Shown here: piece by piece, positions 60,869 to 64,000 of the stretch
Numbering within the stretch: position 1 is the stretch's first letter
Layout of the letters: every line of letters begins with the position of its first letter
Assembly: GCF_038049925.1 (NCBI RefSeq)
Contig: NZ_CP145809.1
Span: 2,638,599 to 2,702,598 of the forward strand
Reading direction: 5' to 3'
Length of the DNA: 64,000 nucleotides
DNA from: Georgenia sp. M64
Lineage (GTDB): Bacteria; Actinomycetota; Actinomycetes; Actinomycetales; Actinomycetaceae
Notes under the pieces: model-generated
Database searches by the model: none
Told to the model about the DNA's origin: nothing
The model's input: the letters and a program-made list of their open reading frames with translations, nothing else
Translations under genes and position numbers: made by a program

Positions 60869-61852
60869 TCAGGACGGGACAGCCACCCGGGCGGCGGCGG
60901 GACGCCGGGCTGCCGCGACGCGGGCAGCCGGCGCGGAGGGGACGCGGACCGGTCGCACCGCCGTCGTCGCGGGGGCCAGGAGGCCGCGGCCCCGCAGCTC
61001 GGGCAGCAGCCCGTGGACGAGGGCCGCGACGTCGGCCGGGACCGAGCCCGGGACGACGACGACGCCGTCCGCGGACCCGCCCGTCACCCACGCCTCGATC
61101 GTGTCGGCGACGTCGCTGACCGTGCCCACCCCGGCCAGCGCCCCGGTCCACGGGGCGCCGCCGGCGATGTCGGCCACCAGGGCCGCCCGCTCGACCGCGG
61201 CGCTGCGCTGGGTGGAGACCACGGCGTGGAGGTCGACCAGGACCGGGATGTCCCCGCGCCCGGCGGCCCGGGCGGCGGCGCGCACCGCGAAGCGGAGCTC
61301 CCGTGCCCACGCGGCGTCCTGCTCGCGGATGCGCACGACGTCCGCGAAGGACCCGGCCGTCTCGACGTCGCGCTCGTCGCGCACCTCGACGACGACGCGC
61401 GTGCCGGTGCCGCGGGCGGGCCGCTCCTCACCGGCGAGGCGGGCCGCGGGGGCGCCGGCCCGGGTCTGGACGCCGGCCCAGGCGGTGCCGACCAGGCCCA
61501 CCTGGGCGAGCTCGGCGGCGACGGGGCGCAGGTCGGCCCCGGCCGGGACGGCGGCGACGAGCCCGCCCGGTCCGGCGTGCGGGCCGATGCGGCGGGCCGC
61601 GACCACGGGGTCGAGCCACGACTCGGGACGCAGGACCCGGTCCGTGCGCAGGCGGAAGCCCTCGCCGAGTGCGACGAAGTCGACGCCGGCCTCGTGGGCG
61701 GCGCGGGTGTAGGAGGCGAGCCGGGCCAGGTCGGCCTTGGCGACGGGCAGGTCCGCCCCGAGGTCGTCGTCGGCGGTGACGCCGAGCGCGGTGAGGTCGA
61801 GGGCGACCTGGGCGGGGCGGTTCTCGGAACGCGGGAGCAGCAGAGCGGTCAT
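60869..61852 (-). CDS. LLM (luciferase-like) monooxygenase family protein under SAM-IV control
   Basis: A 327-residue TIM-barrel protein with LLM features (YTRAAHEAGVDFVALGEGF, DPVVAARRIGPHAGPGGLVAAV, VSDVADTIEAWVTGGSADGVVVVPGSVP). It fits FMN-dependent monooxygenases of the NtaA/SnaA/DszA type, many of which cut sulfur or nitrogen from organic compounds. The N terminus has an unusual aliphatic lead. The start is ATG 61852; ATG 61864 (MCAP) is possible, and neither has a clear ribosome site. It is the only gene after a promoter, riboswitch and Met/Cys leader peptide, which points strongly to sulfur metabolism. Confidence 0.8.
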   Translation of the reverse strand: MTALLLPRSENRPAQVALDLTALGVTADDDLGADLPVAKADLARLASYTRAAHEAGVDFVALGEGFRLRTDRVLRPESWLDPVVAARRIGPHAGPGGLVAAVPAGADLRPVAAELAQVGLVGTAWAGVQTRAGAPAARLAGEERPARGTGTRVVVEVRDERDVETAGSFADVVRIREQDAAWARELRFAVRAAARAAGRGDIPVLVDLHAVVSTQRSAAVERAALVADIAGGAPWTGALAGVGTVSDVADTIEAWVTGGSADGVVVVPGSVPADVAALVHGLLPELRGRGLLAPATTAVRPVRVPSAPAARVAAARRPAAARVAVPS

Positions 61853-62000: not shown

Positions 62001-62024
62001 GGTATGTCGTCAGATGGACATACC
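62001..62024 (-). promoter_or_regulatory. Hairpin at the end of the Met/Cys leader peptide
   Basis: GGTATGTC and GACATACC are perfect 8-bp arms around an 8-nt loop. The leader stop codon (62010-62012) lies in the loop, so a ribosome stalled on the Cys/Met codons or released at the stop would change its folding. Confidence 0.75.
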
Positions 62025-62099
62025 GGGACGACACATGCACATGCACATCGAGCGGCGCGGCGAGAAGACGTTCTGCCCGGGGCCCTGGTGCGTGTTCAT
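62010..62099 (-). CDS. Met/Cys-rich leader peptide
   Basis: A 29-codon open frame from ATG 62099 (after AGGA) to TGA at 62010, ending in SMCMCMCRPGMSI. An internal ATG at 62048 gives the 12-residue form MCMCMCRPGMSI. Alternating Met and Cys codons next to a hairpin are what a translation attenuator sensing charged tRNA-Cys or tRNA-Met would need. It lies between the SAM-IV riboswitch and the LLM gene. The plus strand here also has an open frame, but nothing lies downstream of it. Translation is unproven. Confidence 0.7.
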   Translation of the reverse strand: MNTHQGPGQNVFSPRRSMCMCMCRPGMSI

Positions 62100-62230: not shown

Positions 62231-62238
62231 TCGACATG

Positions 62239-62311: not shown

Positions 62312-63658
62312 TCACACCCCCGGTTCCGCTGGCTCGCCGAGGGACAGCATGAGCCGGTTGGCCCACCCGAAGAAAGCCGCACCGTGGACGAGATCGGCGA
62401 TCTCGAGGTCGTCGAGCCCGGCGGCCCGCAGCGCGCCGACCTCCTGCGCGCCGAACGTGGGCGGGGTGCTGCTCAGCGCGACCGCCGCGGCGACCACCGC
62501 GTCCCACCGCGGTCCGAGGTCGGCGAAGACGCCCTCGTCGAGCAGTCGCTGGACGTCCTCGGGACGCCGCGAGTGGTGCGCAGCGAAGCGGGCGTGGACC
62601 GAGGCGCAGAAGACGCAGCCGTTGAGGCGGCTGGCCGCGGTGGCCGCGAGCTCGCGCTCGGCCCTCGGCAGACCGCCGCGGGTGTTGTAGAAGATGTCGT
62701 TGTCGGTGCGGGTGCGCGCCGCGAGGACCTCGGGGTCGCGCACGAGCAGCCGGAAGTAGTCGTTGTCCGCACGGCGCCGGTCGACGAGCCCGTCGAGGTG
62801 CCGCTCGGTGAGCTCCTCGCGGGGCAGGGGCTCGAGCCACGGGACCCACCCGAGCTGGTCGCGGGTGAACGCCTCGGGACGACGGAGGTCCGGGTAGGTG
62901 AGGACCTGGGCGGGCGCCCGCTCAGCCGGCCCGGGCTCCGGACGGTCGCCGGCGAGACCGTCCGGCGCCTCGCCGGCGACGCCGTCGGGTGCCTCGGCGG
63001 TGCCACCATCCGGTACCTCGGCGGCCAGCGCACCGAGGCCGTGGACGACGCGGACCTGGAAGGCGAGGAACGACACCAGCTGGGCGAGCGTGACGATGCC
63101 GTCGGTGCTCCAGCCCGCCGCGGCCAGGCGCTCGAGCGCCGCCGGGCTCGCCTCGCGGGGCCGCAGGACGAGCAGGTGCGCGTGCTCGAGCGCCGCGGTG
63201 AGCCGGGCCCCGAGCGCCTCGCCGTCCTGGACCCGGTACACCGGGCCCGGCCTGCTCTCCCCGGCCAGCGCCGGCTCACGGTAGGCGCCGTACGGTCCCG
63301 TGGTCGCGCCGCTCGCCACCTCGCGTGCGACGACGCGGGCGAGGTGCGGGTCGGCCGCCCCGAGGTGGGCGGCGTAGCGGGCGGCGACGGGACCCGAGCC
63401 GTGCAGTGCCGAGACGAACGCGGCCACCACCGAGCGCTCGAGGAGCGAGACGTGGGTGGGGTCGACCGGCTCGAGGAGGGCCTCGTGGCTGCGCTGGGCG
63501 TTCGCGCGGGCGGCGGGCCGCGCGCCGCGGATCTCGTCGAGCCGGCTGCCCGGCCGGGTGCCGAGGAGGTGGTCGACGACGTCGGGGACCGCCGGGGGGA
63601 CGTCGGGGTCGGTGGGGACGGTGGTGGGTGCGGAGGCGGTGGTGGGTGCGGTGCTCAT
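62312..63658 (-). CDS. CMD domain and alkylhydroperoxidase domain fusion (Avi_7170/Avi_7169-like)
   Basis: A 448-residue fusion. The N-terminal half (about 20-215) resembles the CMD-domain family Avi_7170 (DVVDHLLGTRPGSRLDEIRG). A short repetitive linker (EAPDGVAGEAPDGLAG) leads to the AhpD-like half (about 245-448), family Avi_7169: the redox pair and proton relay sit in GCVFCASVHARFAAHH (CxxC with His). In other bacteria these are separate adjacent genes beside an LLM monooxygenase and a peptide-type ABC importer. The ATG at 63658 follows AAGAGG; an ATG at 63688 overlaps the upstream stop. Confidence 0.87.
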   Translation of the reverse strand: MSTAPTTASAPTTVPTDPDVPPAVPDVVDHLLGTRPGSRLDEIRGARPAARANAQRSHEALLEPVDPTHVSLLERSVVAAFVSALHGSGPVAARYAAHLGAADPHLARVVAREVASGATTGPYGAYREPALAGESRPGPVYRVQDGEALGARLTAALEHAHLLVLRPREASPAALERLAAAGWSTDGIVTLAQLVSFLAFQVRVVHGLGALAAEVPDGGTAEAPDGVAGEAPDGLAGDRPEPGPAERAPAQVLTYPDLRRPEAFTRDQLGWVPWLEPLPREELTERHLDGLVDRRRADNDYFRLLVRDPEVLAARTRTDNDIFYNTRGGLPRAERELAATAASRLNGCVFCASVHARFAAHHSRRPEDVQRLLDEGVFADLGPRWDAVVAAAVALSSTPPTFGAQEVGALRAAGLDDLEIADLVHGAAFFGWANRLMLSLGEPAEPGV

Positions 63659-63684
63659 GTCGGGTCCTCTTCTGGTCGGGGAGG

Positions 63685-64000
63685 TCATGCCACGGGGGCG
63701 GGGAGCCCGGCGCGCAGCCCGGTCCGCAGCGCAGGGGCCACCTCGGTGGCGATGAGCTCGATGGAGCGCAGGACGTCCTCGTGGGGCGGGTCGATGGAGT
63801 GGACCTGGAACGAGACGTCCGTGGCGCGGGCCAGGGCCGTGTCCTCGGCCAGCTCCGCGAGGACCTGCTCGGGCGTGCCGAGGTGGCTGTCGGTGCGCCG
63901 CAGGAGCGCGTCGACGTCGTCCTCGGGCAGGTGGTGGCCCTGGCGCCGCAGGCCTTGGGCGGCGCGTCGCAGGCCTGCCTCGGCGTGGGGCCGGAGGCGG
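63685..64000 (-). CDS. LLM monooxygenase, C-terminal part (window edge)
   Basis: The last 104 codons of a gene entering from the right edge and ending at TGA 63685-63687. The text GTPEQVLAELAEDTALARATDVSFQVHSIDPPHEDVLRSIE, here cited by the words TPEQV and RSIELIATEVAPAL, is the usual end of FMN-dependent luciferase-like monooxygenases. Its stop overlaps a possible ATG of the CMD/alkylhydroperoxidase gene. This neighbour pairing matches the known LLM (KPN_01858-like) plus Avi_7170/7169 set, implying joint action on one substrate. Confidence 0.8.
   Translation of the reverse strand, partial: RLRPHAEAGLRRAAQGLRRQGHHLPEDDVDALLRRTDSHLGTPEQVLAELAEDTALARATDVSFQVHSIDPPHEDVLRSIELIATEVAPALRTGLRAGLPAPVA

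Follow-up and report, generated by a model that had tools for sequence, protein, structure and literature searches.

Short Met/Cys leader frames behind SAM-IV riboswitches in Actinomycetes and their possible role as a second sulfur sensor

In the window, the 64,000-nucleotide stretch of the Georgenia sp. M64 genome analyzed here, the minus strand carries a SAM-IV riboswitch aptamer followed by a 29-codon leader frame with alternating Met and Cys codons, then by three hairpins (H1, H2 and H3), and finally by a monooxygenase-like gene. The parts and their order are conserved among relatives and the combination recurs in the class, so the pairing of SAM-IV with a leader is wider than the original prediction assumed. 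That prediction, a tandem of alternating Met/Cys codons 3' of a SAM riboswitch, is borne out in the window by the RF00634 match and the frame. With slightly more confidence than doubt, the arrangement is interpreted as a two-stage sulfur attenuator, in which SAM-IV would gate the leader frame and the leader would read charged tRNA-Cys and possibly tRNA-Met.

The aptamer (62230-62120, minus strand) is a full-length match to Rfam model RF00634 (model positions 1-116) and belongs to this family, its 92 bits exceeding the gathering score of 38. It is the sole SAM-IV match in the 4.18-Mb genome in a genome-wide RF00634 search. A possible promoter, TTGACA and TACTGT with an 18-nt spacer (62268-62239, minus strand), is graded as weak because it was picked by eye and a consensus scan gave no promoter-like site at the locus.

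The leader ATG (62099-62097) lies 20 nt behind the aptamer end. The frame, MNTHQGPGQNVFSPRRSMCMCMCRPGMSI, spans 62099-62010 on the minus strand and consists of 29 codons and a TGA (62012-62010), with the C-terminal end MCMCMCRPGMSI; its position, its ends and its Met/Cys codons are conserved in 17 loci. Six alternating codons, ATG TGC ATG TGC ATG TGT (62048-62031, minus strand), encode MCMCMC. Two purine tracts on the minus strand may serve as the ribosome-binding site: GAAGGA (62117-62112), 12 nt 5' of the ATG and present at 17 of 17 loci of the class-A leaders to which the window's leader belongs, and AGGA (62106-62103), 3 nt 5' of the ATG. As in an attenuator, the frame is short, preceded by a Shine-Dalgarno (SD) sequence, and has its Cys/Met codons clustered close to the stop. 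The frame, ribosome site and coordinates originally predicted, with the stop in the loop of a hairpin of 8 perfect base pairs, are all correct. The same reading frame is also open farther 5' into the aptamer, from an ATG at 62237 (75 aa). The pattern ATGTGCATGTGC occurs once in the genome, as does the control pattern read backwards. The window's peptide matched no NCBIfam family at E values up to 10 and thus falls outside the leader-peptide families NF042934, NF042933, and NF042936.

RF00634 matches were found in 57 of 119 relatives and in 35 of 213 family genomes. Aptamer and leader occur together in all nine genomes of the same genus and at eight loci in three other genera (g8, g9, and g35). 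The class-A leaders have the build MxTH.S.RQ.....RSMCM[CS]M..RMSA or near it, and the number and position of Cys vary among them (MCMCMC, MCMSMCC, MCMCMCC, LCMRMPMC, MCMCGRPC). Codon conservation, the check proposed with the original prediction, gave a mixed picture: all 17 class-A loci, in four genera, keep the Met/Cys codons, but in g22, with six SAM-IV/monooxygenase loci, Cys is reduced to 0-1 at 6 of 6. Five of these six retain a frame that has 3-4 Met beyond its start and 0-1 Cys and ends in RRMFMWHKSMA, HRMYMRTHKSMA, RRMRMWHKSMA or RRMYMCMHKSMA (L055, L108, L111, L112, and L114); the sixth, L049, has a single Met and lacks Cys. In g22 the Cys codons are mostly gone and the Met codons retained, and the stop hairpin is retained with a new sequence, the unrelated stem TGGCC-TGATCC-GGCCA.

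Alignment A1 has distinct gap runs of 3, 3, and 6 in its coding columns, each divisible by three; among the 37 gap runs of its non-coding columns this holds for 6. The pN/pS values of the leader (0.78 in g1, the window's own genus; 0.59 in g9; 0.90 over all) are no lower than those of other frames, and purifying selection on the peptide was dropped as unsupported. They indicate that the peptide as a whole is without visible amino-acid selection, which is equally expected of a leader peptide and of a functionless one.

The 256-nt leader RNA of the window is more stably folded than its shuffles (z score -2.36), 4 of 200 of which were equally good. Hairpin H1 (62024-62001, minus strand) has 8 of 8 pairs between the arms GGTATGTC (62024-62017) and GACATACC (62008-62001), and its loop CATCTGAC holds the TGA. 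It is present in the minimum-free-energy fold and persists in relatives through compensatory change: the second pair is A-U in L031, L038, L040, and L041 and U-A in L059 (the window's locus), L104, L105, and L046. RNAalifold does not call H1, since the variable loop length blurs it in the MAFFT alignment. In averages over 16 related, non-independent sequences, the outer five pairs of H2 (61996-61971, minus strand) have a mean probability of about 1 and the core pairs of the larger H3 (61967-61906, minus strand) about 0.92-0.94. Among the 16 sequences, the third pair of H2 occurs as C-G (7) or U-A (9), and one pair of H3 likewise as C-G (11) or U-A (5). The RNAalifold consensus contains 23 pairs, 5 of them with changes on both sides, at an energy of -20.66.

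Two further pairings are predicted at lower probability in the same averages. The CCTTCCTTCC tract behind H3 (with CCTTCC; 61906-61897, minus strand) is complementary to the leader's GAAGGA (mean about 0.4-0.6). A longer pairing of this type is found in L046 (GAAGGACGT/ACGTCCTTC) and L104 (GAAGGAAGT/ACTTCCTTC), with a matching double change between the two; in L040 and L044 it is limited to 5 pairs. For the MCMC codons the predicted partner is the start region of the leader itself, ATGAACACGCAC (mean about 0.4-0.7), and this pairing may be a second reason for their conservation. The placement of the stop in a hairpin loop is a general feature of the leaders: 26 of 45 leader stops reach an enclosing-stem score of 14, which is attained by 12.4% of the remaining positions in these leaders, in a set that includes related, non-independent sequences; 5 of the 45 have no enclosing hairpin.

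The intrinsic-terminator scan gave no terminator-like site before the gene, so this mark of attenuators is missing from the locus, and H3 has no terminator-like T run. All 31 spacers tested behind leaders are richer in C than in G, with a mean skew of 0.20, a modest excess (percentile 0.72-1.00 within the own locus) in related, non-independent sequences. The missing intrinsic terminator and the C-rich spacers point to Rho. When ribosomes were simulated at different codons, accessibility of the gene start shifted little, from 0.39 to 0.47 (mean of 11 sequences). The idea that the leader directly masks the monooxygenase start (TGTCGTC against CGACGACACC, which several relatives have ahead of the gene) was rejected, as accessibility barely changed and the complementarity is lost in g9. 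Pairing of the invariant spacer CACCCC with the aptamer core was also dropped; in sequence so rich in G+C it is indistinguishable from chance.

The gene behind the leader (61852-60869, minus strand; start at 61852 or 61864) begins 157 nt after the leader stop and encodes a 327-aa protein resembling LLM/NtaA-DmoA-type flavin monooxygenases, though divergent. Its match to TIGR03860 (E 1.2e-12) scores 47.4 bits against a cut-off of 279.7; judged by its sequence, the product is a relative of the NtaA/DmoA-family FMN monooxygenases and not a member. A Pfam search found no family at 0.01, and the PDB gave weak matches, to monooxygenases acting on EDTA (E 0.0018) and on dimethyl sulfide (E 0.0099). 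These distant relatives, together with the SAM-IV setting, suggest that the enzyme may scavenge sulfur. The upstream neighbor (62312-63688, minus strand) is a CMD/alkylhydroperoxidase gene of the Avi_7169 type (TIGR04029, TIGR04030). Beyond the window end, in the longer stretch L059, the upstream frames on the same strand are taken to resemble parts of a peptide-type ABC transporter.

Leader, riboswitch and gene do not always occur together. At 28 of 186 SAM-IV loci the gene that follows is homologous to that of the window (tblastn, E up to 1e-5), and all 28 have an intervening short frame; two or more Cys occur in 22 of these frames, and the remaining 6 are the g22 loci with 0-1 Cys. The monooxygenase gene is found in 72 of 213 family genomes, and about 49 of these (72 less 23) have it without a preceding SAM-IV. 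At 13 such loci inspected, cmscan found no SAM-IV at E values up to 1. Four of them have a Cys/Met frame (L196, L202, L204, and L206) and the other nine no clear one. L196, in genome G021, carries an MCMCMC leader, MNTHRTLGQSPSTLRSEVMCMCMCGRARMSA, with H1 intact before the same gene; the frames at L202, L204, and L206 are ...RRMCS or ...HCRMCR. A leader without a detectable riboswitch in G021 shows the two sensors to be separable modules. Ahead of the L196 leader lies a short 5' stretch with GGACCACCCGGCAAGC, which looks like a possible remnant of an aptamer end. No exact match to the leader start was found in viral contigs.

Of 296 class genomes searched, 188 had SAM-IV. The loci read numbered 186: 102 of 103 matches of the first search (one G102 contig omitted), 19 family matches and 65 class loci, with one more family match inside the L109 stretch not counted separately. 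The class loci were, among the matches listed, the 26 best-scoring and 39 chosen before their sequences were seen, a choice that omitted most members of the commonest families. After removal of near-duplicates 149 loci remained. SD-preceded short frames rich in Cys (5-60 codons, two or more Cys, a Cys share of at least 5%, starting 5-95 nt past the aptamer) were present at 26 of these, a few of which (e.g., L117, L118) resemble chance frames next to a direct gene, against 3.2 expected from 60 dinucleotide-preserving shuffles (mean 3.2, sd 1.5, maximum 6). At stricter thresholds the observed and shuffled counts were 18 vs 0.8, 14 vs 0.5, and 8 vs 0.1. Examples are MCCCCRMTRR (L261), MCCCRMN (L266), MCIRRMCCR (L212), MTCRMCR (L161), MRASLHPLTRCCCR (L223), and MGISIRELTTTPLRVSRPMCCCPMPAMSAMPVQA (L137). 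Peptides at L126 (32.6 bits), L129 (30.2), and L245 (40.2) pass the cut-off of 27 bits of NF042934, "putative leader peptide", and stay below the Ms4527A/Ms5788A cut-off of 45.

Sorted by rule, the 149 loci comprise 23 with a leader only, 91 with a direct gene, 3 with both and 32 with neither; several of the last have short frames with one Cys or Met only (VSKRMR, VTCRMRR). At most of these SAM-IV (RF00634) loci a direct gene comes first, unlike the window, where the 29-codon leader does. The median start distance from the aptamer is 33 nt at the 23 leader-only loci and 34 nt at the 91 direct-gene loci. Since these distances match, the leader occupies the usual place of the regulated gene, and it is chiefly for this reason that SAM gating of the leader is proposed.

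In the first stage of the proposed mechanism, the aptamer, presumably by binding SAM, would set translation initiation of the leader frame. In the second, the leader ribosome would sense charged tRNA-Cys, and possibly tRNA-Met, at the MCMCMC codons right before the stop. When SAM is plentiful, the leader would stay untranslated and the long C-rich spacer would be exposed to premature, probably Rho-dependent, termination. When SAM is low and Cys plentiful, the ribosome would reach the stop inside H1 and be released, and expression would remain low. With both SAM and Cys low, the ribosome would stall on the MCMC codons, H1-H3 would refold or Rho would be excluded, and the monooxygenase gene would be expressed. 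With this presumed direction of regulation, the logic would be that of an AND gate for sulfur shortage. Whether Met is read is uncertain: in g22 its codons have been kept where those of Cys were lost, yet Cys runs dominate elsewhere.

A broader proposal is more tentative, and we give it somewhat less than an even chance: that throughout the Actinomycetes SAM-IV recurrently regulates a tiny Cys/Met leader and not an enzyme gene, as a modular two-input AND gate assembled repeatedly with unrelated peptides, in which SAM would decide if the sensor of Cys/Met charging comes into play. If true, a well-studied riboswitch class would often control a second sensor instead of its gene directly, and the way in which one transcript distinguishes SAM shortage from Cys shortage would be explained. 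It would also supply a naturally recurring case of combined logic in a single mRNA, with several dozen test cases named. An annotation of the form "SAM-IV upstream of gene X" overlooks the intervening short frame.

Other explanations share some of this evidence. Riboswitch and leader might act independently, as two attenuators in series with OR or additive logic, so that leader translation would not be gated by SAM. The G021 leader without a riboswitch and the riboswitches without a leader at the 91 of 149 direct-gene loci are consistent with independent action, which nevertheless seems unlikely: the leader starts at the distance of a directly regulated start (medians of 33 and 34 nt), where a translational platform would act, and no second platform was found. 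More serious, at not far short of an even chance, is the possibility that only Cys is read, with the Met codons serving start-region pairing or RNA structure and the checkpoint consisting of SAM and Cys. In many leaders across the class Cys comes in runs and Met is scarce (MARSPMRCCCQ, MRASLHPLTRCCCR, MCCCRMN), the predicted pairing of ATGAACACGCAC with the MCMC codons offers Met another role, and SAM already reports Met limitation. Against a Cys-only reading, g22 retains Met codons while losing Cys, and VSKRMR, at 5 of 65 class loci among the matches listed, has Met without Cys.

It is also conceivable, if quite improbable, that RNA structure alone is conserved and that the open frame is incidental, with no regulatory translation. 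This would fit the pN/pS values, which are not low, the strong H2 and H3, and the MCMC stretch within a predicted pairing. It fits poorly with the gaps, which are in frame only (3 of 3 distinct runs), with the recurrence of Cys-rich frames of unrelated nucleotide sequence at the same place, and with the three peptides that match a known leader-peptide family. Least probable by far is that the nascent Met/Cys peptide senses metal or redox state instead of charged tRNA, by analogy with CruR, in which a nascent CXXC serves to sense copper. Alternating Met and Cys would make a plausible soft-metal ligand, and the published account, in the parts cited here, describes a Cys-containing copper-sensing uORF with Rho-dependent termination (PMC9426467). 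At the present locus, however, no metal gene lies nearby and the context is a SAM riboswitch; Cys spacing varies among loci (MCMC, MCCAR, CCCC, CTCEC), and short forms of the MCCCRMN and MTCRMCR type would be unlikely to bind a ligand inside the exit tunnel.

The two-stage attenuator favored here joins two halves that are already known, SAM-IV and the Cys leader peptides of actinobacteria. The Cys-codon leaders at actinobacterial sulfur genes mentioned in the original prediction are in print (PMC1262725). As described in the parts of that paper cited here, they share with the window a short frame, Cys codons near the stop and a sulfur-type gene context; they also lack a clear intrinsic terminator, and Rho involvement was proposed for the mycobacterial cys leaders. 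The window differs in alternating Met with Cys, in its SD and in the preceding riboswitch. The polycysteine sORFs of Canestrari 2020 (cited in PMC13236596), a mycobacterial set, are leaderless by their title, whereas the window's leader has an SD. The claim that no tandem of this kind had been described has to be narrowed: SAM-IV joined to a Cys/Met leader did not turn up in searches of open-licence PMC papers, but a Met/Cys leader before metNIQ (PMC8079986) and a riboswitch combined with alternating Pro codons in mgtL (PMC6460261) have been published. The metNIQ leader, metL of S. lividans, has 29 aa and alternates Met and Cys near its end (ARCMCRRMCAF, with CMCRRMC), but it is described as leaderless, precedes another gene, and appears with no mention of a riboswitch in the passages of PMC8079986 cited here.

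In the mgtA leader, according to the cited sections of PMC6460261, a Mg2+-sensing riboswitch is combined with mgtL and its alternating Pro codons. The two systems are alike in placing a metabolite or ion sensor and an alternating-codon frame that reads charged tRNA in one leader; ligand, amino acid and phylum differ, and both mgtA sensors use one shared fold. The Xanthomonas SAM-I riboswitch, which also binds uncharged initiator tRNA, likewise reads SAM and Met charging in a single leader, but in the account cited the tRNA contacts the RNA directly, without a leader peptide (PMC7270179). In mycobacteria a riboswitch controls or cooperates with a translated uORF in the B12 (PMC11260477) and Mbox (PMC12810186) leaders, the latter with Rho-dependent termination; the parts of these two papers cited here do not describe the uORFs as sensing amino-acid supply through codon runs.

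Several minor patterns were seen among the SAM-IV and leader loci. In genus g85 the GTG-started, Met-only VSKRMR of six codons lies 40-58 nt behind SAM-IV (L222, L225, L228, L229, and L234). CGA-ATG (Arg-Met) recurs right before the leader stop, as CGAATGTG or CGAATGTC, in otherwise unrelated peptides (L031, L033, L035, L038, L040, L041, L044, L052, L064, L067, L122, L124, L153, L161, L196, and L204); CGA is a rare codon in such G+C-rich genomes. Eight SAM-IV copies in the family (L032, L034, L036, L045, L048, L050, L053, and L103) are followed after 11-20 nt by small proteins (about 108-156 aa) that have a GHxxHxIQ motif in common and for which we know of no name. In two of these eight cases the genome also has the leader type at another locus. 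At L042 (G010) SAM-IV is followed by MQINSAAPRATTASSLMAACMCTCECRR and then by a membrane protein, which we take to resemble the YeeE/YedE sulfur transporter.
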